Shown here: one piece after another, positions 4,205 through 16,489 of the stretch
Layout: each line of letters begins with the position of its first letter
Numbering within the stretch: the stretch's first letter is position 1
Notes under the pieces: model-generated
Database searches by the model: none
The model's input: the letters and a program-made list of their open reading frames with translations, nothing else
Told to the model about the DNA's origin: nothing
Made by a program: the position numbers and the translations under genes
DNA from: Candidatus Bipolaricaulis sp.
GTDB lineage: Bacteria; Bipolaricaulota; Bipolaricaulia; Bipolaricaulales; Bipolaricaulaceae
DNA: 16,489 bases
Direction of reading: 5' to 3'
NCBI GenBank assembly: GCA_020062805.1
Contig: JAGUVP010000264.1
Coordinates: forward strand, 1-16,489

Positions 4205-5182
4205 ATGATTCAGTATCTGGTGCGGCGGCTGCTGTGGGCGATCCCCGTGTTGCTGGCCATCATGGTGGTCACGTTCTTCCTTGCTCGTGCCATCCCGGGG
4301 GGGCCGTTTGATTTTCGAGGAGACAAGCAGATACCGGAGACGATTCGCAAGAACCTGGAGCGAAAGTACGGGTTGGACCTCCCTCTGCACCAACAGCTCG
4401 GACGCTGGATCTGGGACGCGATCCGGTTTGACTTCGGCCCGTCCTATGCATCACGGTCTCAGACCGTAACCGACATCCTCAAGCGCACGTTCCCTATCTC
4501 GTTCCAGCTGGGGGTGCTCGCTCTCCTGTTCGCCTTATGCATCGGAATCCCCATGGGGACCATCGCTGCGGTCAAGCAGAACACGATCGTTGACTACGGA
4601 GCTACGTTCGCGGCGATTCTGGGTGTATCTATGCCCACCATGGTCACGGGCCCCCTCCTGATGTGGGTGTTCGCTCTCATTCTCGGGTGGCTCCCCGCAG
4701 CACGGTGGGGCACGGACTACACCCAGCTCTACCTTGGATTCTTCCCCAACCTCCTCTCGGGCAAGTTCTGGCTCCACGCGATTCTGCCCTCCCTAACCTT
4801 GGGCCTGGCGTATTCGGCGTCCATCGCGCGACTGACCCGGGCAAGCCTTCTTCAGGTTATCCGTGAGGACTACATCCGAACCGCATACGCCAAGGGACTG
4901 CCGGGGCGAAGGACGGTCATCCTGCACGGGCTGCGAAACAGCCTCATCCCGGTAGCGACAGTCCTCGGCCCAATGTTCGCCGGAATTGTGACAGGCAGCA
5001 TGATTGTCGAGCAGATCTTCGGTATCGCGGGAATGGGGAAGTACTTCGTGACCTCCGTAACCAACCGGGACTACCCGATGATCATGGGGGCCGTGTTGCT
5101 GTACTCCGTACTGTTGGTAGGGGCGAACCTGCTGGTGGATGTAAGCTACGCCTGGCTTGACCCAAGGATTCGGTACGACTGA
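4205..5182 (+). CDS. Peptide ABC transporter permease, DppB/OppB type (first locus)
   Basis: A 325-residue inner-membrane protein of normal family length. It begins [20 protein letters not shown] with the family's first membrane helix, then [11 protein letters not shown] and the [14 protein letters not shown] periplasmic segment (about 51-64). A BPD_transp_1 core follows, with the cytoplasmic EAA loop [16 protein letters not shown] (about 221-236), which docks with the ATPase, and a C-terminal [11 protein letters not shown] typical of DppB. It would pair with the DppC-type permease next to it (TGATG, one-base overlap). The start codon is fixed by the promoter immediately upstream. The substrate is probably di- or oligopeptides, though related systems take sugars or nickel. 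Confidence 0.93.
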
Positions 5183-6180
5183 TGGCCCTCCAGAAGCGCA
5201 CGATGGGGGCAAACGGAGAAATGCGAGGGCGGAGCCCGACTCAGGACGCGTTCCGGCGCCTGTTCAGACACCGAGCAGCCACTGTCGGCGCCATCTACGT
5301 TCTCCTGCTGGTGATCGTGGCGCTGTTCGTGGACACAACGATCCCCGCCGCGATCTTCGGAGGAGAGGCGCGACCTCTGATCGCCCCCAAGCACTACGCC
5401 GAGGTGAGTTTCTTCGAACGGGATTTGCCTCCGGGGACGCCGGGCTTCCCTCTCGGCACCGACTACCTCGGCCGGGATATCCTCAGCCGTACGCTCTACG
5501 GTACCCGTGTGTCGCTCGCGGTGGCGATTGTGGCAGCAACGGTTGCCCTCATTGTGGGGTTGACCTACGGCGTGATCTCCGGGTTCGCCCCATCGGGTGT
5601 TGACAACGCGATGATGCGGTTCGTGGACTTCCTGTATGGGTTCCCTCTTCTCATCTTCATCATCCTCATGCAGGCCTTGTTCAAGGCGGTGAGCCGCCGC
5701 GGCGCGACGGGGTTCGTGGGGATGATGGTGGGGATCGATAAGGCGTTGGGGGGGATGTTCTTTCTGTTCGTTGCGCTAGGGATCCTCAACTGGATTGGGA
5801 TGGCTCGACTCGCCCGTGGGCAGACCCTGTCTGTCAAGCAGAAGGAGTACATCGAATCGGCGCGTGCCCTGGGAGCGAGCAACCTGCGCATCGTATTCCG
5901 CCACGTTCTTCCCAACATCATTGGACCGTGTATTGTGTCGGAAACGCTGGCGATTCCAGGGTACATCCTGACCGAGGCGTTTCTCAGCTTCATCGGGCTG
6001 GGGGTGACCCCTCCAACCCCGAGCTGGGGACTTATGATCTCGGAGACGTACCAGGGGTTGCGGACATATCCCTGGGAGACGCTCATCCCCGGCGCGGCCC
6101 TCGCCACCACGACGCTCGCGTTCAACTTCCTGGGGGATGGGCTTCGCGACGCGTTTGACCCGCGGTTGAGAGGGACATAG
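5182..6180 (+). CDS. Peptide ABC transporter permease, DppC/OppC type (first locus)
   Basis: A 332-residue permease with the OppC N-terminal segment (FRRLFRHRAATVGAIYVLLLVIVALF, about 24-49). The hallmark LGTDYLGRDILSRTLYGTRVSL (91-112) precedes the core helices. The EAA loop KEYIESARALGASNLRIVFRHVLPN spans about 221-245, and the C-terminus ends NFLGDGLRDAFDPRLRGT, typical of DppC. A Gly/Met-rich extra stretch (about 170-192, RRGATGFVGMMVGIDKALGG) makes it somewhat longer than E. coli DppC (about 300). Its start overlaps the dppB1 stop by one base. It forms the heterodimeric channel with DppB1. Confidence 0.93.
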   Translation: MALQKRTMGANGEMRGRSPTQDAFRRLFRHRAATVGAIYVLLLVIVALFVDTTIPAAIFGGEARPLIAPKHYAEVSFFERDLPPGTPGFPLGTDYLGRDILSRTLYGTRVSLAVAIVAATVALIVGLTYGVISGFAPSGVDNAMMRFVDFLYGFPLLIFIILMQALFKAVSRRGATGFVGMMVGIDKALGGMFFLFVALGILNWIGMARLARGQTLSVKQKEYIESARALGASNLRIVFRHVLPNIIGPCIVSETLAIPGYILTEAFLSFIGLGVTPPTPSWGLMISETYQGLRTYPWETLIPGAALATTTLAFNFLGDGLRDAFDPRLRGT

Positions 6181-6194
6181 ACTATTGGGTTTGC

Positions 6195-6213
6195 GCCAGG
6201 CTTCTGGCCTGGC
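6195..6213 (+). promoter_or_regulatory. Hairpin between dppC1 and SBP1
   Basis: A perfect 7-bp inverted repeat, GCCAGGC-TTCTG-GCCTGGC, lies in the 124-base gap before the binding-protein gene. No T-run follows, so it is not a typical intrinsic terminator. It may be an mRNA stability or processing element that raises SBP levels relative to the permeases. Apart from this I see nothing in the gap but the SBP1 ribosome site. Confidence 0.45.
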
Positions 6214-6304
6214 TCGAGGAGGTGGTCGTCGGAGGGGATCGGGAGGGGTAGCAGGCGATGAGTCTTTCGTTCTTGTGGCAGATAGGAAGCAAAGGAGGCA
6301 TGCG

Positions 6305-8062
6305 ATGAAGCTGAGCAAACTGGCAATACTGGCGGTTGTTGGGTTGATGATTTGGCCTGCGTTCGCGGCACCGGTGATCCTGAACCGGAACCTGGGCACG
6401 GAACCTCCCACGGCGGACCCGGCCCTCGGTGAGGACACGACCTCGATCGAGATCATCGAGCAGATGTTCCTCGGTCTTGTGGACATGGACGAGGTAACGA
6501 TGGCCCCGATCCCGGAGTTGGCCGCGCGCTGGGAGGTTTCAGCGGATGGGCTGACCTGGACCTTCTTCATGCGCAAGGACGTGTACTGGGTGAAGTACGA
6601 TGCCAAAGCGGGCCAGGTCGTCTATGACCTCGACGAAGGGGGCCAGAAGCGTCCAGTGACTGGTAATGATGTCGTGTACGGCGTGAAGCGGACGCTAAGC
6701 CCGGAGACGGGTTCGAACTACGCCTACGTGCTGTACATCATCGACGGCGCCCTCGAGGCCAATGAGGGAACCGGGGCGCTTGACGATGTTGGCGTCGGGC
6801 TCCTTCCGATCAAGAACGAGAAGGGTGAGACCGTCGGGTACGACCAGTATGCCGTTCAGTTCAAGCTGATTGCCCCGGCGGGCTACTTCGGCCAGATCGC
6901 CTCGATGTGGGTCGCCCGGCCCCAGCCGCAGTGGGCGATCGCGAAGCACGGCGACGCGTGGATCGAGCCGGAGAACATCGTCACCAACGGGTCGTACGTG
7001 ATGAAGACCTGGGTTCACAATGACAACCTCGTCTTCGTGCGAAACCCGTACATCCCCGCGGCCCTGTGGGGCGGCGGGAACATTGACGAGGTTCACTGCG
7101 TGACGATCGTCGAGGACTCCACCGAGTTCGCGATGTACCTCAACAACGAACTCGACACGATCGACGGCCCACCGCTGCCGGAGATGGACCGCATCAAGAC
7201 CGACCCCGTCCTCTCTAAGCAGCTCAACATCCGGCCGCAGCCCTGCACCTACTACTATGGGTTCGTCACCACCAAGCCCCCGATGGACAACCCGGATGTG
7301 CGCAAGGCGCTCTCCATGACCATCGATCGGAAGACGATCGTCGAGCAGGTGACGAAGGGCGGACAGATCCCGGCGAACACGTTCGCTGGAGGAACCATCT
7401 TTGGCAATGCTGCTCTCAGCCCGGAGATCGCTCCGTGGGCCATCGGCGTAGCTGGGTGGGACTACGACAAGGCCGTCACCGCGGCACAGCAGCTGCTGGC
7501 CGGTGCTGGGTACCCGGATGGAGCGGGCCTCGAGATCATCCTCATGCACAACGTGTCCGAGGGCCATGCCCGAATCGCGCAGGCGATCCAGGCGATGTGG
7601 ACGAAGGCGTTCCCCAAAGCCAAGTTCATCATTGAGACCCAGGAGTGGGGAACCTACCTGAAGACCATCACCAAAGAGACGCCGATCGAGAACGTGCCGC
7701 ACGTGTACCGGCTGGGCTGGTGCCAAGACTACCCGGACCAGAACAACTGGGTACACGAGGTGCTCAACCCGACCCTTGGCGAGAACAAGCCGCGGTTGAG
7801 CGCCAATGACCCCTACGTGGGGGCGGCGATCGCACGGTTTGACGCGGTCACCACGCAGGCGGGGCGGCTTTCCGATCCAGTCGAGCGAGCAAAGCTGTAC
7901 TTCGAGGCTGAGAAACTGCTCATCGACGAGATCGTGGCTATCGCACCCATCTACTACTACAGCTACAACATCATGAACAAGCCGTGGATGACCCGGAAGT
8001 GGCACGACACACCGCATTGGGACACCTGGTCCATCGACATGGCACTCAAGGCGAAGGGCTAA
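6305..8062 (+). CDS. Peptide ABC transporter substrate-binding protein, family 5 (SBP1)
   Basis: A 585-residue protein. The ATG at 6305 is preferred over upstream in-frame starts because AAAGGAGG lies just before it and it opens a clean signal peptide (MKLSKLAILAVVGLMIWPAFA, cleavage near AFA-A). There is no lipobox Cys. The mature part is SBP_bac_5: GTEPPTADPALGED (31-44), LAARWEVSADGLTWTFFMRKDVYW (72-95), PVTGNDVVYGVKR (117-129), and late RLGWCQDYPDQNNWVHEVL. A 20-odd residue insertion (about 97-116) interrupts the segment that is usually continuous before the TGNDVV motif. It delivers peptides to DppB1C1 in the periplasm. SBP last in the operon (B-C-A) is unusual. A terminator follows. Confidence 0.94.
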   Translation: MKLSKLAILAVVGLMIWPAFAAPVILNRNLGTEPPTADPALGEDTTSIEIIEQMFLGLVDMDEVTMAPIPELAARWEVSADGLTWTFFMRKDVYWVKYDAKAGQVVYDLDEGGQKRPVTGNDVVYGVKRTLSPETGSNYAYVLYIIDGALEANEGTGALDDVGVGLLPIKNEKGETVGYDQYAVQFKLIAPAGYFGQIASMWVARPQPQWAIAKHGDAWIEPENIVTNGSYVMKTWVHNDNLVFVRNPYIPAALWGGGNIDEVHCVTIVEDSTEFAMYLNNELDTIDGPPLPEMDRIKTDPVLSKQLNIRPQPCTYYYGFVTTKPPMDNPDVRKALSMTIDRKTIVEQVTKGGQIPANTFAGGTIFGNAALSPEIAPWAIGVAGWDYDKAVTAAQQLLAGAGYPDGAGLEIILMHNVSEGHARIAQAIQAMWTKAFPKAKFIIETQEWGTYLKTITKETPIENVPHVYRLGWCQDYPDQNNWVHEVLNPTLGENKPRLSANDPYVGAAIARFDAVTTQAGRLSDPVERAKLYFEAEKLLIDEIVAIAPIYYYSYNIMNKPWMTRKWHDTPHWDTWSIDMALKAKG

Positions 8063-8386: not shown

Positions 8387-8459
8387 AGGCACAGAACAGA
8401 GGCTGCTTTGATCGTGGGTTATTATGGAGTGTAATTCAACTTACTCAAGGAGGCACACG

Positions 8460-8570
8460 ATGAAGTGGGGAGAGAAGGTCAACAAGACGCTAGGAACCCG
8501 TGGACTGTACGTTCTTCTTGCGATGACCCTGCTCGCCATCCTGAGCGGGGCCAACCACAAGTGGTGCTAA
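8460..8570 (+). CDS. Small secreted-peptide precursor, copy 1 (36 aa; putative signalling peptide)
   Basis: A 36-codon ORF with an excellent RBS (AAGGAGG, 8448-8454, five bases before ATG). A basic N-terminus (MKWGEKVNKTLGTRG) leads to a 13-residue hydrophobic core (LYVLLAMTLLAIL), then SGANHKWC. S-G-A fits the -3/-1 rule for signal peptidase I and would release the pentapeptide NHKWC. That it is a real gene is shown by a second complete copy and a third partial copy, all with the same strong RBS and almost the same DNA. Position: after the first transporter terminator and before the IS. Function is unknown. A quorum/pheromone precursor reimported by the neighbouring peptide transporters is my leading inference; a type I toxin-like membrane peptide is the main alternative. 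Confidence 0.8.
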   Translation: MKWGEKVNKTLGTRGLYVLLAMTLLAILSGANHKWC

Positions 8571-8606
8571 TCGTACGGAGATACTGACCAGGCGTGCGGG
8601 GCGTGA

Positions 8607-8664
8607 TGCCTCAGAAGTAGGTGTTACCGAAGCCGGGAGCGATGCCTCAGAACGCATGTTACCG
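8607..8664 (+). repeat. Left IS end: outer and inner terminal repeats
   Basis: Two directly repeated copies of TGCCTCAG...TGTTACCG start 36 bases apart (8607 and 8643). Such repeated subterminal boxes are usually transposase-binding sites. Confidence 0.8.
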
Positions 8665-9794
8665 GGGCAACCTCGCGAGGGCTCGTAGGTTCTCCTCGAT
8701 CCGTCTTTGCAGGGCCACCGGGTTCAGCGTGGTGTAGATCTCCCCGGCCTCGATCTTCTTCTCCTCGGGGATGTCGGAGGCAGCGAGCACCCGCCGGTAG
8801 GGCGTGTGGGCCAGGTCGTACTTCTTCCGTACCTTGCTGCCCACCCGCTCCTTGGAGATGAGTTTCCGCACCGGTTGGAAGTAGTTCACCACCAGCCGCC
8901 AGTCGGCGTAGATCGCCTCCAGGAGATCCAGCGCGTCCCGCGACTCGTACCGCCGGTACCCCACCAGCTGGCGCACGACACGCCAGTTCTTCCCCTCCAC
9001 GTACGCCTGGTCGTTCTTCTTGTACGTCCGCGAGCGGGTGAACTGGACCCCTTCCTTCTGGCAGTACGTGTAGAGATGGGCGTTGAGGAACGCCGAGTCG
9101 TTGTCCGAGTCGATCCCCCGCAGGGGGAACGGAAGGCGCTCCCGGATCCGCTGGATCGCCTTCCGTACCGCCTCCTGACTCCGGTTGAGCACAGCCACCG
9201 GCTCGCACCACAGGGTGGCCACGTCCACCGCGTTCAGGGTGTGCAGTACTCCCCTGCCGTCGTCTCCCCGCAGTGGGCCACCAGGTCCAGCTCCAGGAAC
9301 CCCGGGCCCACGTCCTCCCAGTCAGCGAAGGTCCGCACAGGAACCTTCGCCTTGAGGAGGGTCCCCGGCTTGGTGGCAGGCCGTCCCGTGTCCCGGCGGT
9401 AGCGGTGCGTGACGAGCAGCCGGTCGATCGTGGCCGGGCTCATCTGGACCAGGAGCCTTCGCGTGTCCGGGGCCAGCGCGAGTTCCCCTTCACGCTGGAG
9501 CACTGCCACGATCTCGGGGAGAAACGGAGCGAGGCGCTTCGAACAGATCCATCCGCAGGCCTCCCACACCTGAAGGAGCGCTGCCTTCACGTCCGGGGTG
9601 TACATCCGGGGACGTCCCCGACGGTCCCTGCCCTTGGGTCTCCTTCCGTTCCGGAGGACGCGGATCGCGGCCTTGCGGTGGTACCCGGCGAGGGCCACGA
9701 ACTCGTCGAGGATCATCGTCTTGTCGCCGCGCCTCGCACGCAGGTAGCGGGGGCGTAGCGCTCCCACCACCTCCGCCACGCTCGCTTGAGTCAT
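8659..9794 (-). pseudogene. DDE transposase (integrase-core type), broken by a frameshift
   Basis: The first part starts at ATG 9794 (GAGGAGG five bases upstream) and runs to a stop at 9236-9234; the second frame resumes by about 9240 and ends at TAA 8661-8659. The N-terminal half has a helix-turn-helix region (LDEFVALAGYHRKAAIRVLRNG) and ends in FLELDLVAHCGETTAGEY, which holds the first catalytic Asp. The second frame supplies VDVATLWCEPVAVLNRSQ, GIDSDNDSAFLN (second Asp) and KKNDQAYVEGKNWRVVRQLVGY (catalytic Glu). The parts join seamlessly as GEY...TLNAVDVAT if one base is missing or two are extra near TGCACACCCTGAAC. No slippery heptamer is evident, so this looks like an inactivating mutation or a sequencing error and not a programmed shift. 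Confidence 0.85.
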
Positions 9795-9811
9795 CGGCAC
9801 CTCCTCGTCTT

Positions 9812-9868
9812 CGGTAACCCGAATTCTGAGGTACCGACACCCCGCCCGGTAACACTTTCACTGAGGCA
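9812..9868 (-). repeat. Right IS end: inner and outer terminal repeats
   Basis: On the minus strand the outer repeat reads TGCCTCAG-TGAAAG-TGTTACCG (9868-9847) and the inner one TACCTCAG-AATTCG-GGTTACCG (9833-9812). The inner repeat lies just upstream of the transposase ribosome site, so transposase binding here could also repress its own gene. Confidence 0.8.
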
Positions 9869-9935
9869 ACTCGGCGTCTTGACCGTTGAAGAGCACCCCA
9901 CTAGACTGTACGTTTGCTGTGCTGTTCGGGGAGGT
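9869..9935 (+). pseudogene. Possible decayed remnant of a second peptide gene, cut off by the IS
   Basis: Just beyond the IS, ACTGTACGTT (9905-9914) repeats a word in the peptide genes. The frame through it reads TRLYVCCAV, compared with TRGLYVLLAV in peptide copy 2. It lies 37 bases after the IS end, against 42 bases between the ATG and the same word in the intact genes. After that the similarity fades and no KWC tail is visible. Alone the match is weak. It gains weight because the left IS edge falls within two bases of where a tandem copy (148-bp period) should start. Confidence 0.35.
9879..9907 (+). promoter_or_regulatory. Candidate promoter for the SBP2-dppBCDF locus
   Basis: TTGACC (9879-9884) and TAGACT (9902-9907) are separated by 17 bases, about 90 bases before the SBP2 start and immediately outside the right IS end. 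The match is good but not perfect. It is the best candidate I can see for the second transporter locus. Confidence 0.45.
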
Positions 9936-9999
9936 GGTCGCCGTAAGGAGTCGGGGGATGCGCAACCGTAACCTCATGAAGGGCAGGAAGGAGGCGTCT

Positions 10000-11895
10000 A
10001 TGCGCAGGAGCGTGGTAGTAGCGGCAGTGGTGTTGATGGGCGTGGTGGGTCTCGGACAGGTGCTGGACGTCGGGATCTTCGAGGACCTGACCACGACGAA
10101 CATCTGGGCCCGGATCGGACCGGACGCCACGGTGTGGAACACCTACGTTTCGGGCGGCCAGCATGGTGGCCTCTATGTATCTGCGGCCCCGTACTGGACG
10201 TTTGTCCCGTCGTTGGCGGCAGACTTCCCGAGCGACTTCGTCGAGAACGCTGATGGAACATGGACTGCGACGGTCGAACTCCGCGCGGGGATCAAGTGGA
10301 CCGATGGCACGCCGTTCACCGCGGACGACGTTGTGTTCACCTACAACGTGCTCTTGACCGAGATCGGCGGCGGCCGGTTCGGGATCCTCCTTGGTGGGAA
10401 CTGGCCGAGCTACGTCCCCGACGCGCTCGTGGCCGTGGAGAAGGTGAACGATCTGACAGTCGCGTTCGTGTACTCAATGGAGCCGGGCCTCGGGGAGTGG
10501 ACGTTCGGAGCTCTGTTCAGCCCGATCGTGCAGAAGGCCTACTGGGAACCCCACTTCCAGGCAGCACTGGGGACGGACGATCCGACCCGGAACCTCCTCC
10601 GCGTGACCCCCACCGGCGAACCGATCCTGGGCGGGTACCAGTTCGTCCAGTGGCAGCCAGGCGCGTTCGCCCAGATGAACAAAAACCCGACGTACTACGG
10701 CACGGGGGAAACCCTCACGTTCTACGAGGGTGGTGGGTTCACAATTGCGAACCCGAAGCTGGGGTTCGATCTTGAGGGCTACGGAGGCGTCACGGGCAAG
10801 CTCGACCTCTCGCTCACCGAGGGTCCCTATGTTGACTCCATCCTGTACTCGGTCTTCTTGAACCAGGACGCGGCGGTGCTGGCGCTTCAGGGCGGCCAGA
10901 TCGCGACGTTCCTGAACCCGTTGGGGCTGGCGAGCGGGTTCCAGCAGCGCCTAGCTGCGACCCCGAACGTTCAGATCGTCTCCAACCCGCCGTGGGGATT
11001 CCGGTACATGGCGTTCAACATGCGCCGCGCACCGATGGACAACGCGGCGTTCCGCCATGCGGTGGCGACCCTGATCGACCGGGAGTTCCTGGCCGAGGGG
11101 GTGTTCCAGGGGATCATCGTCTCGATGTACTCGGCCGTTCCTGATTCGAACCCGTTCTGGCACAACCCGAACGTGACGATCTACGGCGAGGGGATGACCC
11201 GCGCCCAGCGCGTCGAGGAGGCGGTACGGATCCTCAAGGAGGCTGGGTTCTCGTGGGATGCCGAGCCCAAGGTTGTCTTCCCCGGGACCGGCAACCAAGC
11301 AGTGATCGGCGTCCTCCCGGACGGGAGGGAAGTGGCTGCGCCGCGAGGGTTCAAGCTCCCGGACGGCACGTACTGTCCTGAGCTTGAGCTGCTCGCCCCG
11401 AGCGCGGGGTACGACCCGCTGCGGGCGACGTTCGGCCTGTACATCGAGCAGTGGGCGAGGGAAATCGGGCTCCCGATCAGGGCCAACCTCACCGGGTTCA
11501 ACGTGATCGTGGACAAGGTGTGGGCCCTTGATGGGTTCAACTACGACATGTACATCCTCGGGTGGTCCCTCGGGAACCCGGCGTTCCCGGACTACCTCTA
11601 CTACTTCTGGCACTCGGACATGGACTTCATCGACGGGTGGAACACCCCGGGCTACCACAACGACGAGTTCGACCAGTTGGCCAGCGAGTTCCTCGCTGCC
11701 CAGAGCGTCGACGAGGCGCGCCCGCTTGTGTTCCGCATGCAGGAGATCCTGGCCGACGACGTCCCGTACATCATCCTGTTCGACAGCCCGATCGTGGAGG
11801 CGTTCCGGACCGACATGATCCAGCTCCCGTACACGGAGGTCCTGGGCGGAGTCCAGTTCGTGTGGCCGTTGACGACCGTGAGGGCGCTCAAGTAG
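10000..11895 (+). CDS. Peptide ABC transporter substrate-binding protein, family 5 (SBP2)
   Basis: A 631-residue protein. The ATG at 10000 is chosen because AGGAAGGAGG lies six bases upstream and it opens a signal peptide (MRRSVVVAAVVLMGVVGLG); upstream in-frame starts would add an implausible basic extension. No lipobox Cys. SBP_bac_5 features: NADGTWTATVELRAGIKWTDG (83-103), PFTADDVVFTYNVLL (105-119), the central RYMAFNMRRAPMDNAAFRHAVATLIDRE, and the late MYILGWSLGNPAFPDYLYYFWHSDMD. It is larger than E. coli DppA/OppA (about 540), with extra loops. It captures peptides in the periplasm for DppB2C2. It leads a five-gene operon; two hairpins separate it from dppB2. Confidence 0.94.
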   Translation: MRRSVVVAAVVLMGVVGLGQVLDVGIFEDLTTTNIWARIGPDATVWNTYVSGGQHGGLYVSAAPYWTFVPSLAADFPSDFVENADGTWTATVELRAGIKWTDGTPFTADDVVFTYNVLLTEIGGGRFGILLGGNWPSYVPDALVAVEKVNDLTVAFVYSMEPGLGEWTFGALFSPIVQKAYWEPHFQAALGTDDPTRNLLRVTPTGEPILGGYQFVQWQPGAFAQMNKNPTYYGTGETLTFYEGGGFTIANPKLGFDLEGYGGVTGKLDLSLTEGPYVDSILYSVFLNQDAAVLALQGGQIATFLNPLGLASGFQQRLAATPNVQIVSNPPWGFRYMAFNMRRAPMDNAAFRHAVATLIDREFLAEGVFQGIIVSMYSAVPDSNPFWHNPNVTIYGEGMTRAQRVEEAVRILKEAGFSWDAEPKVVFPGTGNQAVIGVLPDGREVAAPRGFKLPDGTYCPELELLAPSAGYDPLRATFGLYIEQWAREIGLPIRANLTGFNVIVDKVWALDGFNYDMYILGWSLGNPAFPDYLYYFWHSDMDFIDGWNTPGYHNDEFDQLASEFLAAQSVDEARPLVFRMQEILADDVPYIILFDSPIVEAFRTDMIQLPYTEVLGGVQFVWPLTTVRALK

Positions 11896-11903
11896 GAAGC
11901 GGC

Positions 11904-11967
11904 GGGAACAGCGAGTTCCCATTGCGCAACAGAACAGCCGGGGGGTGGGAGACCCCCATCCCCCGGC
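11904..11967 (+). promoter_or_regulatory. Two consecutive hairpins between SBP2 and dppB2
   Basis: Hairpin 1: GGGAAC-AGCGA-GTTCCC (11904-11920). Hairpin 2: a 13-bp stem, GCCGGGGGGTGGG pairing with CCCATCCCCCGGC around loop AGACC (11937-11967, one G-T pair). Neither has a T-run, so complete termination is unlikely. In this position (94-base gap after an SBP gene) such structures commonly protect the upstream mRNA from 3' decay or allow partial termination, giving more SBP than membrane components. The dppB2 RBS follows directly. Confidence 0.65.
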
Positions 11968-11989
11968 CGTCTCAGAGGGGGAGTTGAGG

Positions 11990-13141
11990 ATGCTGCGGTT
12001 CGTGGGGGGAAGGCTCGTGCAGATCGCCATCACGTTCTTCTTGTTCCTCACGGTAGTCTTCTTCCTGTTCCAGGCGATGCCCGGCGACTACACGAAGCAG
12101 TTCATCATGAACCCCCGCATCCCTCCCGCAGCGCGGGAAGCCCTCAAGGTTCGCCTCGGCCTCACGGATTCGGTGTGGGGCCAGTACGTGAACTACGTGC
12201 GCAACGTGTTTACGGGGAACCTCGGCCTGTCGTTCGAGCACTACCCGCGCGAGGTGTGGGACGTGATCAAGGAACGGCTTCCCCGTACGGCGATCCTGTT
12301 CCTGGTGGCATCGGTGATGGCGTTCGTGTGGGGATTTCCACTGGGGCGGTACATCGCCTGGAAGCGGGGGCAGACGCTCGACTACACGATCACCGTCGCA
12401 GGGGTCCTGTTCTACACGATCTTCACGCCACTCCTGGCCCTGATGCTGCTCTTCGTGTTCGCGAACCAGCTCGGCTGGTTCCGCACCGGGGGGTTCCTGA
12501 CCCCTCGGCTCTGGCTCACACCGCCCTCCTCCCCCCAATCCATCTTCATCTGGCTGGCCGCAACACTTGCTGGGCTGGGAACGTGGGCTGTGCTGGCCCG
12601 CTTTGCAACCCGCAGGATTGGGCATCCGCGCCCGCGACGTCTCGCTCAGCGTGGTTTGGTGGTCGTAGGCGTTGGACTGGCCGGGCTCGGTTGGTGGGCA
12701 TCGGGCCTTGGCCCCTTCGCATGGGACATCGTGTGGCACATGTTCCTCCCCGTCTTGGCCGTGACCTTGATCGCGTTTGGAGGAGACATGCTGCTGATGC
12801 GGGACTCGATGCTCGAAGTGATCCGCGAGGACTACATCACCACTGCCAAGGCGAAGGGGCTCCCAGACAAGGTCGTCCGCGACCGGCACGCGGCTCGCAC
12901 CGCGCTCCTTCCGCTCGTCACGAGTTTCACCTTGTCCATCGGGTTCGTTGTCTCGGGCGGGATCGTAACCGAGACCATGTTCTCGTGGAAGGGGATGGGG
13001 CTCACCTACCTCAACGCGCTGCTGATCCAGGACTATCCGATGGCGATGGGGTGCCTCATCTTCACCGGGATTCTGGTCTTGGTAGCGCACCTGGTGGCGG
13101 ACCTCCTGTACGCGGTGCTCGACCCGCGGATTGTCTACTAG
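11990..13141 (+). CDS. Peptide ABC transporter permease, DppB/OppB type (second locus), with insertion
   Basis: A 383-residue permease; the ATG at 11990 follows GAGGGGGAG and gives MLRFVGGRLVQIAITFFLF. Recognisable parts are FQAMPGDYT (27-35), the LKVRLGLTDSVWGQYVNYV segment (52-70), the EAA loop REDYITTAKAKGLPDKVVRDRH (279-300) and the C-terminal YAVLDPRIVY. It is about 55-60 residues longer than usual. The extra part (about 175-245) lies between the middle helices and holds two additional hydrophobic segments flanking a very basic loop (FATRRIGHPRPRRLAQRG). An upstream GTG in the same frame is rejected because it falls inside the hairpin and lacks an RBS. Confidence 0.92.
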   Translation: MLRFVGGRLVQIAITFFLFLTVVFFLFQAMPGDYTKQFIMNPRIPPAAREALKVRLGLTDSVWGQYVNYVRNVFTGNLGLSFEHYPREVWDVIKERLPRTAILFLVASVMAFVWGFPLGRYIAWKRGQTLDYTITVAGVLFYTIFTPLLALMLLFVFANQLGWFRTGGFLTPRLWLTPPSSPQSIFIWLAATLAGLGTWAVLARFATRRIGHPRPRRLAQRGLVVVGVGLAGLGWWASGLGPFAWDIVWHMFLPVLAVTLIAFGGDMLLMRDSMLEVIREDYITTAKAKGLPDKVVRDRHAARTALLPLVTSFTLSIGFVVSGGIVTETMFSWKGMGLTYLNALLIQDYPMAMGCLIFTGILVLVAHLVADLLYAVLDPRIVY

Positions 13142-13150
13142 GAGCTCTCG

Positions 13151-14104
13151 GTGACCGATCGAACCCCAGCCCAATACGCGATCACTCCCCTGTGGAAGAT
13201 GCGCCTGCGCCTCCTCGCTCGGACCAGCCGCCAGAACTGGTCGCTGTTCTGGGAGTCGCGGATCGGCCCGGTGGGTCTCCTGATCATCGGCCTCTTCCTC
13301 CTGGCAATGGTGGCCCATCCGATCCTCATCAGCACGGTGTGGGAGCCGAGAGTCTATGACCCGGTGATGGGCTTCGACCGGGCGCTCATCGGGCGGCATC
13401 CCGCCCCACCATCGTGGAGCCATCCTTTGGGGACCGACCCCATTGGGCGAGACGTGCTGTCCCAGCTGATGTGGTCTGCACGGTCAGCGTTCGCCCTCGG
13501 CGTGACCGCGGCTGTGATCAGCGTAGTGATCGGAACGCTCATCGGGGCCGTATGCGCCTATTTCGGCGGGGTGGTGGATGTCGTCTTCATGCGGCTGGCG
13601 GACCTGGTGATGCTGTTTCCGTTCATCGCCTTGCTCATGGTGTTGCGAAGCGTGCTTCCGCTGACCCTGATTCGCCTGGCGCTGATCCTGGGCGCTCTGT
13701 CGGGCCTGGGCGGGATCACCATCGTTCTCAAGTCCCAAGCCCTAACAGTGAAGGTGAAGCCGTACATCGAAGCGGCGAGGGTGGCGGGAGGAGGATCCTG
13801 GCACATCATCCGCCGGCATATCATCCCCAACATCATGCCGCTCACGTTCCTGTACATGATGTTCAACGTAACGGCGGCCATCTTCACAGAGGCGGTCCTG
13901 TCGTTCTTCGGATTCCTCGATATCCGCATGAGCTGGGGGGTCATGATCAACACCGCCCAGCAGGCGGGGTACCTTGGGGCGTTCGGCCACTACTGGTGGT
14001 TGTGGGCGCCGGCTGGTGCGGCGATCACCCTCCTTTGCTTCGCGTTCTACTTGGTGGGGCGCGGTCTGGATGCCGTGGTCAACCCCCGGCTCCGCCGCAG
14101 GTGA
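13151..14104 (+). CDS. Peptide ABC transporter permease, DppC/OppC type (second locus)
   Basis: A 317-residue permease starting at GTG 13151, nine bases after the dppB2 stop, with TAGGAG seven bases upstream overlapping that stop. The OppC signature HPLGTDPIGRDVLSQLMWSARSAF spans 91-114; the EAA loop KPYIEAARVAGGGSWHIIRRHIIPN spans about 203-227; the end is YLVGRGLDAVVNPRLRRR. It partners DppB2 to form the membrane channel and couples to DppD/DppF through the EAA loop. Confidence 0.94.
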   Translation: MTDRTPAQYAITPLWKMRLRLLARTSRQNWSLFWESRIGPVGLLIIGLFLLAMVAHPILISTVWEPRVYDPVMGFDRALIGRHPAPPSWSHPLGTDPIGRDVLSQLMWSARSAFALGVTAAVISVVIGTLIGAVCAYFGGVVDVVFMRLADLVMLFPFIALLMVLRSVLPLTLIRLALILGALSGLGGITIVLKSQALTVKVKPYIEAARVAGGGSWHIIRRHIIPNIMPLTFLYMMFNVTAAIFTEAVLSFFGFLDIRMSWGVMINTAQQAGYLGAFGHYWWLWAPAGAAITLLCFAFYLVGRGLDAVVNPRLRRR

Positions 14105-14108
14105 TCCG

Positions 14109-15074
14109 ATGGCCCTGTTGACCGTGCAGGACCTGACCATGCACTACCGGACGAAACTTGGCGGTGTTCACGCCGTGGATGGGGTGTCGTTCGCGATGGC
14201 AGAGGGCGAGGCGATTGGGCTTGTCGGGGAGTCCGGATGCGGGAAGACGTCGGTCGCGATGGCCCTCCTGCGGCTCCTGCCCGACAACGCCCAGATCCTG
14301 GGAGGGGAAATCCTGTTCGAGGGCCGCGACCTGGTCAAGCTCTCCGAGCACGAGATGCGCAAGGTCCGCTGGAGGAGCATCTCCATGGTGTTCCAGGCCG
14401 CGATGAACTCTCTCAACCCCGTTTACCGTGTGGGGCAGCAGATCATCGAGGCGATCCAACAACACCTGTCTGTGTCCGAGCGGGAGGCCCGGAGCCGAGT
14501 GGCCGAGCACTACAACCTTGTGGGCCTCGATCCCAAGCTGATGGACCGCTATCCCCACGAGTACTCGGGGGGGATGAAGCAGCGAGCGGTGATCGCGATG
14601 GCCCTTGCCTGCTCCCCCAAGCTGATCATCGCCGACGAGCCGACCACAGCCCTTGACGTGATCGTTCAGGATAGAATCCTCCGCCGGATCAACGAAGTCC
14701 GCGCCGAATTCAACATGGCGATGATGTACATCTCCCACGACATCGCGGTGATCGCCGAGGTGGCTGAGCGGATCGGGGTGATGTACGCAGGGTGGATCGT
14801 GGAAATGGCGGATACGGTGTCCGTGTTCAAGCATCCCGCCCATCCCTACACGATCGCCCTTATGTCCGCGTTTCCGTCCATCAAGGGCGACAAGCGAGTC
14901 CTCGCTCAACTGCCGGGGGAACCGCCAAACCTCCTCGCACCACCTTCAGGGTGCCGCTTCCATCCCCGGTGCCCTCACGCCACCGCGGAGTGTGTGGACG
15001 AGGCACCGCGCCTCGAGGAGATCGACAAGGGACATTTCGTCTCCTGCTGGCACCCCCAGAGGAGGAGCCAGTGA
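14109..15074 (+). CDS. dppD: Peptide ABC transporter ATP-binding protein, DppD/OppD type
   Basis: A 321-residue ATPase. The ATG at 14109 follows an AGGTGATCC ribosome site that contains the dppC2 stop; longer in-frame readings are inside dppC2 and unrelated. Walker A GESGCGKTS (about 40-48), Q-loop VFQAAMNSLNP, signature YSGGMKQR, Walker B LIIADEPTTALD and the H-loop ISHD are complete. The C-terminal oligo_HPY region has Cys residues in CRFHPRCPHATAEC plus a later SCW, the pattern that binds a 4Fe-4S cluster in characterised DppD/OppD proteins. It powers import with DppF on the cytoplasmic face. Confidence 0.95.
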   Translation: MALLTVQDLTMHYRTKLGGVHAVDGVSFAMAEGEAIGLVGESGCGKTSVAMALLRLLPDNAQILGGEILFEGRDLVKLSEHEMRKVRWRSISMVFQAAMNSLNPVYRVGQQIIEAIQQHLSVSEREARSRVAEHYNLVGLDPKLMDRYPHEYSGGMKQRAVIAMALACSPKLIIADEPTTALDVIVQDRILRRINEVRAEFNMAMMYISHDIAVIAEVAERIGVMYAGWIVEMADTVSVFKHPAHPYTIALMSAFPSIKGDKRVLAQLPGEPPNLLAPPSGCRFHPRCPHATAECVDEAPRLEEIDKGHFVSCWHPQRRSQ

Positions 15075-16072
15075 GCGAGAACGGTCTTCTCACCGTCGCC
15101 GGCCTCAGCAAGCTCTTCCCCGTGAAGAAGCGGACCTACTCGCTCCGCGTGCGCAACTTCATCCACGCCGTTGACGGCCTCAGCTTCTCAGTGGAGCGCG
15201 GAGAGGTCTTTGGCCTCGTGGGCGAGTCCGGATGCGGTAAGACGACTACCGGGAAGCTGATCGTGAAGCTTCTCGATCCCACCGCGGGGGCTGTCCTACT
15301 CGGCGGCGAGAACACAGCGAGCATCCGCCGAGGCAAGCCCCTCCGAGCGTTCCGGCGCAGGGTACAGATGATTTTCCAGGATCCCTACGAGAGTCTGAAC
15401 CCCCGATTCACGGTGTTCGACACCGTGGCCGAACCCCTTGTAGTGCAGAATCGACACTCCGTAGCTGAGAGGGAGCGCGCGGTGGCGGAGATCCTCGTCG
15501 CTGTAGGCCTTGCACCGCCGGAGACGTTCATGTTCCGATTCCCACACGAGTTGTCCGGTGGGCAACGACAACGCGTGTCCATTGCCCGGGCGATGGTGAT
15601 CCATCCCGACTTCGTTGCCGCGGATGAACCAACCTCGATGCTCGATGTCTCGATTCGAGCCGGGATCATGGAACTGCTGCTTGGCCTGAGGGCCGACCTC
15701 GGTGTGAGCTACCTGTACATCACCCACGACCTGGCAGTGGCACGGTACATGTGCAACCGCATCGGGGTGATGTACCTAGGGAAGATCGTGGAGCTGGGGC
15801 CAGCCGAGGAGGTCGTTCAGAACTCCCTCCACCCGTACACCCAGGCCCTCATTGCCTCGGTTCCAGTACCCGATCCTACCTACCATCGCCAGCCAGGGGA
15901 GATCAAGGGAGACGTGGCGGCACCCATTGATCCCCCGGCGCGATGCAGGTTCTACCCACGCTGCCCGAGAGGCGACAAACAGTGCGAGGAGGTTTCCCAC
16001 CCACCTCTCGATGAACTCCAGCCTGGGCACTTCGTCGCGTGCTACAAGGCATCGGCACAGAGCAGGGGATAG
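15071..16072 (+). CDS. dppF: Peptide ABC transporter ATP-binding protein, DppF/OppF type
   Basis: A 333-residue ATPase. The GTG at 15071 overlaps the dppD stop as GTGA, with GAGGAG upstream, giving MSENGLLTVAGLSKLFPVKK, a typical OppF opening. Walker A GESGCGKTT, Q-loop IFQDPYESLNPR, signature LSGGQRQR, Walker B VAADEPTSMLD and H-loop ITHD are present. The C-terminal CRFYPRCPRGDKQC and a later ACY give the four-Cys oligo_HPY motif. It forms the heterodimer with DppD. It may also serve DppB1C1, whose locus lacks ATPases. It is the last gene of the operon; no strong terminator follows. Confidence 0.95.
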   Translation: MSENGLLTVAGLSKLFPVKKRTYSLRVRNFIHAVDGLSFSVERGEVFGLVGESGCGKTTTGKLIVKLLDPTAGAVLLGGENTASIRRGKPLRAFRRRVQMIFQDPYESLNPRFTVFDTVAEPLVVQNRHSVAERERAVAEILVAVGLAPPETFMFRFPHELSGGQRQRVSIARAMVIHPDFVAADEPTSMLDVSIRAGIMELLLGLRADLGVSYLYITHDLAVARYMCNRIGVMYLGKIVELGPAEEVVQNSLHPYTQALIASVPVPDPTYHRQPGEIKGDVAAPIDPPARCRFYPRCPRGDKQCEEVSHPPLDELQPGHFVACYKASAQSRG

Positions 16073-16146
16073 CCCCTCTTCTCCCTTCCCGTTCCGGGCG
16101 GGGCCATCGCAACCCGGCTAAGCGCCGTAGTTCACTCCTTCTTACC
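16073..16146. other. Short gap after dppF with no clear terminator
   Basis: A pyrimidine-rich run follows the stop (GGGG-ATAG-CCCC then TCTTCTCCCTTCCC), a weak four-pair stem only. I see no gene. Some transcription from the transporter operon could therefore continue into the peptide genes. Confidence 0.35.
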
Positions 16147-16226
16147 TCATCTACCACTTGACGGCCATGCCCGAGTCGCTGTACGATATCGACCAAGGAC
16201 GACGCGGATGTCAAAAGGGGGTTAAG
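16147..16226 (+). promoter_or_regulatory. Conserved promoter and leader of the peptide gene 2-3 array
   Basis: TCATCT (16147), TTGACG (-35, 16158-16163), TACGAT (-10, 16182-16187, 18-base spacer) and CAAAAGGGGGTTAAG (16212-16226) are arranged exactly as before peptide gene 1 (8307-8386). The -10 here is the better of the two. The predicted start site, near 16194, gives a leader of about 120 bases containing the conserved purine-rich element. Confidence 0.65.
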
Positions 16227-16317
16227 CGCGAGAGGAGATAGTTCACGCTCGGGTCTGTGTATCGATGAACTGTAGGGACGGATGCTGGTACCTCAACTGA
16301 ACCCAAGGAGGGAGACG

Positions 16318-16428
16318 ATGAAGTGGGGAGAGAAGGTCAACAAGACGCTAGGAACCCGTGGACTGTACGTTCTTCTTGCGGTGACCCTGCTCGCCATCCT
16401 GAGCGGGGCGCACTGGAAGTGGTGCTAG
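16318..16428 (+). CDS. Small secreted-peptide precursor, copy 2 (36 aa)
   Basis: A 36-codon ORF with RBS CAAGGAGGGAGACG ahead of ATG. Its DNA matches copy 1 at all but one of the first 91 bases (ATG to GTG, M22V), then differs in an eight-base block that changes NH to HW, and ends again in KWC. Basic N-terminus, hydrophobic core LYVLLAVTLLAIL, S-G-A site, predicted released tail HWKWC. It lies downstream of dppF and its stop is followed by a 37-base gap and copy 3. Function unknown; see copy 1 for alternatives. Confidence 0.82.
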   Translation: MKWGEKVNKTLGTRGLYVLLAVTLLAILSGAHWKWC

Positions 16429-16465
16429 AATTCTGTGAGAGACTGAATCTACAAGGAGGGAGACG

Positions 16466-16489
16466 ATGAAGTGGGGAGACAAGGTCAAC
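16466..16489 (+). CDS. Small secreted-peptide precursor, copy 3 (partial, cut by window edge)
   Basis: ATG at 16466 preceded by the same CAAGGAGGGAGACG as copy 2. The eight visible codons read MKWGDKVN, differing from the other copies only at E5D. The start is 148 bases after that of copy 2, showing a tandem array that continues past the window. The variable tail is not visible. Confidence 0.75.

Follow-up and report, generated by a model that had tools for sequence, protein, structure and literature searches.

The window analysed here, 16,489 nt of DNA from Candidatus Bipolaricaulis sp. (GenBank contig JAGUVP010000264.1), contains very short genes for hydrophobic peptides, and the question that it raises is what these genes encode and which protein responds to their product. 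Comparison with relatives revealed a conserved cassette in several phyla, which consists of one to six short precursor genes, a gene for a protein with a MASE9-like membrane domain and an HD-GYP domain, and usually a gene for a DUF5317 protein. We incline, with somewhat more confidence than doubt, to the view that the window genes give rise to precursors of a peptide ligand that is exported and acts on a membrane phosphodiesterase of cyclic di-GMP (c-di-GMP).

Peptide genes of the window and their family

The window is the complete contig C26 of a 1.71-Mb metagenome-assembled genome (MAG), 73% complete, and its end falls inside the third peptide gene. As the initial annotation had reported, there are two full 36-aa genes and a third one cut at 16466, each behind a strong Shine-Dalgarno sequence (AAGGAGG, 6 nt 5' of the ATG in all three copies). 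The tandem arrangement applies to copies 2 and 3, which are 148 nt apart, copy 1 lying separately, 7.9 kb off. The two full copies form a 127-nt repeat with 93% identity, and the translations of copy 1 and copy 2 are MKWGEKVNKTLGTRGLYVLLAMTLLAILSGANHKWC and MKWGEKVNKTLGTRGLYVLLAVTLLAILSGAHWKWC, respectively. In the following list, the Shine-Dalgarno sequences were read from the sequence, and the full precursors were identified from the sequence and by a search with a hidden Markov model (HMM) of the family.

8447..8453, + strand: Shine-Dalgarno AAGGAGG of copy 1
8460..8570, + strand: peptide precursor copy 1, 36 aa, tail NHKWC
8553..8567, + strand: codons 32-36 of copy 1 (NHKWC), variable candidate message, with cleavage predicted after SGA
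16305..16311, + strand: Shine-Dalgarno AAGGAGG of copy 2
16318..16428, + strand: peptide precursor copy 2, 36 aa, tail HWKWC
16411..16425, + strand: codons 32-36 of copy 2 (HWKWC)
16453..16459, + strand: Shine-Dalgarno AAGGAGG of copy 3
16466..16489, + strand: start of copy 3 (MKWGDKVN...), truncated by the contig end

No additional copy was found in the rest of the host assembly, a 73%-complete MAG. Both window peptides matched no Pfam family, and no NCBIfam family was matched by window copy 1, one Thermus peptide and one Caldisericum peptide. An HMM profile of the family, built from 39 peptides, had matches in 73 of 100 genomes from the host's class, including 32 of the 38 near-complete ones. 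Because of this distribution, and because the ratio of non-synonymous to synonymous differences (pN/pS) in the peptide core is 0.29 in the window's genus, the window peptides represent more than chance open reading frames (ORFs). In Bipolaricaulota the consensus starts with M-K-W-G, continues with a linker of variable sequence and a hydrophobic stretch, and closes with A-x-x-K-W before a short tail. The alignments show no variation at the first W or at the K-W pair, although divergent members are known (locus L061, genome G075). At least two peptide matches were present in 23 of the 64 genomes that have the peptide beside the partner gene described below, arrays reach five copies in Bipolaricaulota, and contig ends fall inside several of them. 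A search of 5.8 billion proteins gave 199 clusters at E up to 1, and all organism-named entries among the 120 matches listed are Candidatus Bipolaricaulota, Bipolaricaulis or Bipolaricaulia. The family is a widespread and previously undescribed one of tiny membrane or exported peptides, hidden both from annotation, since most members have fewer than 50 codons, and from assembly, since tandem repeats break contigs.

Linkage to a membrane HD-GYP protein and to DUF5317

Clustering of the genes around the peptides showed that the most frequent neighbour, present in 35 of 40 neighbourhoods, is an HD-GYP-domain protein of about 425 aa whose N-terminal part is a membrane domain; a DUF5317 protein is encoded 3' of it in 23 of 40 Bipolaricaulota neighbourhoods. 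Pfam annotation outside the window covered, in this phylum, these two clusters (c0 and c1) and one neighbour protein (L038). A profile of the N-terminal domain of the partner found it in 72 of the 100 class genomes: 67 contain both peptide and partner, 6 the peptide only (including G000), 5 the partner only and 22 neither. In 64 of the 67 genomes having both, the peptide lies 5' of the partner on the same strand, at a median distance of 100 nt from the start of the profile match (range 26 to 1060), and no pair on opposite strands was observed among the 67. In each of the three exceptions (G010, G031 and G034) one member is at a contig end, and in the partner-only genomes the match is at or near a contig end (G014, G041, G049, G081) or weak and partial (G027). 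In L038, L041 and L043 the HD-GYP gene escaped the gene caller, but the N-terminal profile places it there.

The initial annotation had stated that no receptor was visible. This is correct for the window, and the same N-terminal profile search found no assembled partner copy in the window's own genome; a receptor candidate is nonetheless expected past the contig end. In relatives, the array at the position of copy 3 continues into the MASE9-like HD-GYP gene, often followed by DUF5317, and the junction of copies 2 and 3 aligns with an array of G002 that leads into the HD-GYP gene. The partner genes are thus missing from the window because the contig breaks inside the array.

As regards the domains of the partner, HD_5 (PF13487) was found in all nine linked proteins scanned, with E from 6e-35 to 3e-44, which makes them members of the HD-GYP phosphodiesterases. 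The residues of the HD ... HHExxDGxGYP motif are invariant in 25 Thermus-type sequences, and the domain matches the folds of 4mcw and 4r8z. The MASE9 cut-off (PF20972, 24.3 bits) was passed by four of the nine, namely those of Thermus composti (85.8), G165 (35.5), G112 (28.5) and L037 (25.1); L054 (22.3) and L061 (11.1) remained below it, and L064, L106 and L108 gave no match, so that the assignment of the Bipolaricaulota partners to MASE9 is borderline. The predicted fold of the membrane domain resembles the ligand-binding S-components of energy-coupling factor (ECF) transporters. The three DUF5317 proteins scanned (PF17248, cut-off 25 bits) scored 109.7, 124.6 and 96.1 bits. DUF5317 has two conserved Asp 18 residues apart, a weak match to the dyad of LspA, whose profile (PF01252) was the best of 38 compared with DUF5317 by hhalign and came first in the structural list, again as a weak match. 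In the Pfam scan the same three proteins did not match PF01252 (LspA / Peptidase_A8), the sequence search of the PDB with DUF5317 did not yield a meaningful match (best E 0.11), and all Foldseek matches were at E 9 or above.

Outside the class, weaker matches to the partner N-terminus were found in 11 of 97 genomes. In G112 and G118 (Thermus composti), the peptide, the MASE9/HD-GYP protein and DUF5317 are encoded in a row, and the G112 peptide starts with MKWG and ends with ADFKWH. Searches for DUF5317 (37 of 243 genomes) and MASE9 (61 of 151 genomes) led to further loci; Thermotoga maritima, a control genome, has matches for both. The loci were then subjected to a strict ORF scan (22-60 codons, ribosome site, hydrophobic core, A...xW end), which took into account only those HD-GYP frames that are preceded by 120 nt or more. 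It was positive in 56 of 70 loci outside the first set and in 30 of 35 Bipolaricaulota loci, as compared to less than 1% of shuffled sequences and to 3/51 and 1/372 control genes, and nine of the 19 misses carry a peptide by eye (L048, L054, L057, L068, L071, L158, L159, L161 and L163). Caldisericum exile contains six copies of a 104-nt unit that are identical in DNA, and its peptide was matched in 18 of 54 genomes of its phylum. The Thermus peptide is present in 26 of 27 genomes of the genus of G118, and the named Thermus, Meiothermus, Calidithermus and Thermaceae records have a peptide in 20 of 23 loci; the Thermus and Meiothermus peptides lack the MKW start. The layout with the peptide upstream of the sensor is therefore found in at least three bacterial phyla, the other two being Caldisericota and Deinococcota.

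The peptide also accompanies DUF5317. Among the loci from L104 on, including L117-L123 of Bipolaricaulota and excluding nine edge loci (L115, L116, L125, L127, L144 and L153-L156), a peptide was found in 61 of 65 with DUF5317 and in 4 of 8 without it; of these four, two are borderline, and the others are L157 and L161, the contig of L161 coming to an end. Among the more distant HD-GYP genes of MASE9-like type (E 1e-19 to 4e-6), those of L108, L110, L112 and L114 were without such a peptide, and those of L104 and L106 had only borderline ones; L107, L111 and L113 escaped the locus-wide scan and have no W-ending peptide among their listed ORFs.

Some variants were also observed. In G075, of a distant family of the class, divergent peptides lie 5' of MASE9-like proteins (L117 3108-3377 and L118 3193-3330, gene-strand coordinates) and end with SFKLG (two copies) and NDKFCC; the MASE9-like protein of L118 has 243 aa only and stops before the HD-GYP part. 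In L160 and L203 (family f188, relatives of Thermus) the peptides are built alike but have another residue in place of the Trp, with the ends GAGANFDP and GASASYNP. In L128, L130 and L143 (family f112) the fetched sequence contains DUF5317 but neither a peptide nor an HD-GYP gene, which represents a second context of this protein, and L131, L148, L149, L154 and L155 (family f107) contain two consecutive DUF5317 genes. Five peptide sites lie away from the contig with the DUF5317/HD-GYP match (G112:C21:115156-115362, G197:C19, G210:C8, G241:C125 and G214:C16); that of G112 is a second site, and the other four possibly reflect contig breaks only.

Core and tail of the precursor, and the surroundings in the window

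The two parts of the peptide evolve differently. In 19 Thermus peptides (31 aa), 15 Meiothermus-like peptides (29 aa) and 10 genes of the window's genus, pN/pS was 0.26, 0.31 and 0.29 in the core and 0.54, 0.50 and 0.57 in the tail, respectively, rising to 0.71, 0.66 and 0.78 when the conserved tail positions were left out. The core is thus under purifying selection, and the tail is looser. The 19 Thermus peptides are all distinct; positions 19-26 (ALGLAAGA) and Trp30 are invariant, and the other tail positions vary. The initial annotation had proposed a signal-peptide-like precursor with an informative short tail after SGA, a proposal that these data strengthen. Of 16 arrays, 13 have the same five residues up to and including KW in all their copies, and 8 of the 10 arrays with differing cores are among these 13 (the G002 array, which contains Ns, was excluded from this count). 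The window is an exception to this uniformity, as copies 1 and 2 differ at six coding bases, five of which are in codons 31-33. On the conservation of the tail in homologues the outcome is divided: across species the near-invariant Trp and its spacing are kept, and the residues around it differ. The tail reads GFHWK in T. composti, SFHWR in T. parvatiensis and DLKWH in Caldisericum exile. Judging from this pattern, the short tail after SGA looks like the informative part of the precursor, that is, the message.

The peptide genes of the window are surrounded by the following features.

4205..8062, + strand: dppB-like, dppC-like and SBP_bac_5 genes 5' of copy 1, outside the conserved module; a minority of relatives have such genes close to the peptide
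9886..16072, + strand: second SBP_bac_5 gene, two permease genes and two ABC-ATPase genes 5' of copies 2 and 3
8602-9883, - strand: IS481-like transposase remnant in two frames, also delimited as 8659..9800, directly 3' of copy 1 (28.6 bits against a family cut-off of 224, match only at 8659-9228)
986-1058 and 1148-1231, - strand: two tRNA genes (Rfam)

Since DNA 86-89% identical to the IS481-like remnant was found at a different place in G004 (L037), the remnant is probably mobile, and it may have split or moved the peptide array of the window; at the equivalent site of G002 the array continues into the HD-GYP gene. In L039 (G008) and L040 (G005) a different five-gene set, including clusters c45-c48, replaces the dpp genes 5' of the peptide.

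Proposed peptide ligand, alternatives and known systems

We propose that the precursor, through its basic N-terminus and hydrophobic segment, would sit in the membrane with its C-terminus outside. Cleavage near [AGS]-x-A, possibly by DUF5317 as maturation protease, would free, or leave exposed, a Trp-containing tail of about five residues, which in the window would be NHKWC or HWKWC. The S-component-like MASE9 domain may bind this tail from outside and thereby alter the activity of the cytoplasmic HD-GYP domain, so that c-di-GMP would report the abundance of the peptide, whose dose the tandem gene repeats may raise. A wider claim is that Bipolaricaulota, Caldisericota and Thermaceae share a new class of quorum-sensing cassette, with a species-specific Trp pentapeptide, DUF5317 as an LspA-like aspartyl protease, MASE9 as an S-component-like sensor and the HD-GYP phosphodiesterase as the switch; this we regard as possible rather than probable. 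If true, it would provide the orphan membrane sensor family MASE9 with its first ligand, the orphan membrane protein DUF5317 with a function and thermophiles with a peptide language, and it would link an extracellular peptide directly to c-di-GMP, with neither kinase nor import in between. Since cultured Thermus, Meiothermus and Caldisericum carry the cassette, the question can be tested directly. Among the openly licensed PMC papers that full-text searches listed on DUF5317, MASE9, HD-GYP with small peptides and receptors, Bipolaricaulota quorum sensing, c-di-GMP peptide pheromones and energy-coupling factor with HD-GYP, no title or start of an abstract describes such a cassette. For T. thermophilus, the authors of one paper state that c-di-GMP effectors are so far entirely unexplored (PMC11731258).

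The tail covaries with MASE9, which would fit a contact between the two. In 40 Thermaceae-type loci, tail distance correlated with MASE9 distance after removal of the HD-GYP distance (r 0.28, p 0.0005 in permutations that ignore phylogeny), and also when the peptide core was removed in addition (0.27), whereas no correlation between tail and HD-GYP was left after removal of MASE9. Several points call for caution with this result: the neglect of phylogeny, the raw correlation of tail and HD-GYP (0.51), and a partial correlation of the core itself (0.12 overall, 0.26 in Thermus and 0.35 in the Meiothermus-like loci, there above that of the tail). The covariation suits contact of either kind, the cleavage of the precursor is itself a prediction, and all aligned Bipolaricaulota peptides have an N-terminal Trp, which would be odd for a signal peptide that is discarded. 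These last three points favour the chief rival, an uncleaved single-span membrane micro-protein that would be a regulatory subunit of the MASE9/HD-GYP protein, touching the outer face of the receptor with its Trp tail, with no signal between cells; the conserved hydrophobic segment with interfacial Lys-Trp and the linkage to a membrane enzyme agree with it as well. We nevertheless consider it unlikely, given that the copy numbers (six identical ones in C. exile, as many as five in Bipolaricaulota) suggest dose and not stoichiometry, that the same tail on differing cores suggests that the tail alone is read, and that the Thermus and Meiothermus peptides do without the MKW start.

A short ORF that has its own ribosome site, carries a near-invariant Trp near its stop codon and precedes a membrane-protein gene, in most cases by some tens of nt up to about 200, would also suit a regulatory leader or arrest peptide, whose translation controls the downstream sensor gene, the signal-like segment and the C-terminal Trp being sensed through the ribosome tunnel or Trp supply. 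Multiple identical full copies, a tail with Trp as its only fixed residue, covariation with a protein domain and a core selected at the amino-acid level make this improbable; the Rfam scan of the window, which returned only the two tRNAs, gave no leader and no antitoxin above threshold. Re-import through an Opp system, with capture of the trimmed peptide by SBP1 or SBP2, was the model of the initial annotation. SBP_5 and DppBC-type genes do adjoin the peptide in the window and in some relatives, including L064 of another family, and the substrate size range of Opp covers NHKWC and HWKWC. However, the SBP_5 cluster of the window is near the peptide in at least 9 of 41 Bipolaricaulota neighbourhoods of unequal size (a minimum, only c0 and c1 being annotated among the neighbour clusters), and it is the membrane receptor candidate that recurs instead; an additional receptor in the cytosol may be encoded by the other clusters. 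Because the importer is a minority neighbour, re-import as a general mechanism is unsupported, and we hold it very improbable here. Type I toxins, silenced by antisense RNAs, had been named as the main alternative; size, hydrophobicity and tandem copies recall them, yet they are hardly credible because the linkage to a signalling enzyme is conserved across phyla, with the sensor gene downstream in 64 of 67 class genomes and never on the opposite strand, the same layout elsewhere, and a peptide in nearly every Thermus genome.

As compared with known systems, the precursor of the proposed ligand recalls the enterococcal sex pheromones, such as cCF10, which derive from lipoprotein signal peptides. 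These are short peptides of several different sequences, released from a precursor with a signal peptide by proteases of the membrane, one of them lipoprotein signal peptidase II. They correspond to the final stretch of the signal peptide, ahead of the lipobox Cys, and reach their receptor in the cytosol after uptake through PrgZ/Opp (PMC7117660). Here, in contrast, the tail comes after the hydrophobic segment without a lipobox Cys ahead of it, and the candidate receptor linked to it is a membrane HD-GYP protein. DUF5317 resembles LspA, weakly, in its spaced Asp pair.

RRNPP systems (Phr, PapR, SHP) likewise export a small precursor, encoded beside the receptor gene, in which the message is formed by about five residues at the C-terminus; they signal to TPR receptors in the cytosol and thus depend on import by Opp. 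Here the constant downstream neighbour, among the clusters annotated outside the window, is the membrane HD-GYP protein. Agr combines a diversifying peptide precursor (AgrD), a processing membrane protein (AgrB) and a membrane receptor (AgrC) in one gene set. By Pfam, however, the proteins linked here are HD_5/MASE9 and DUF5317, neither AgrB nor the AgrC histidine kinase, the proposed output is c-di-GMP hydrolysis, and the message would be the extreme C-terminus. In Rpf/DSF an HD-GYP phosphodiesterase, RpfG, serves an extracellular signal, as is proposed here, with a fatty acid as the signal and a separate kinase as its sensor. Finally, the MASE9 membrane domain is predicted to share its fold with the ECF S-components RibU, FolT and a metal-transporter component, from which it differs in being fused to HD-GYP, with no transport role suggested.

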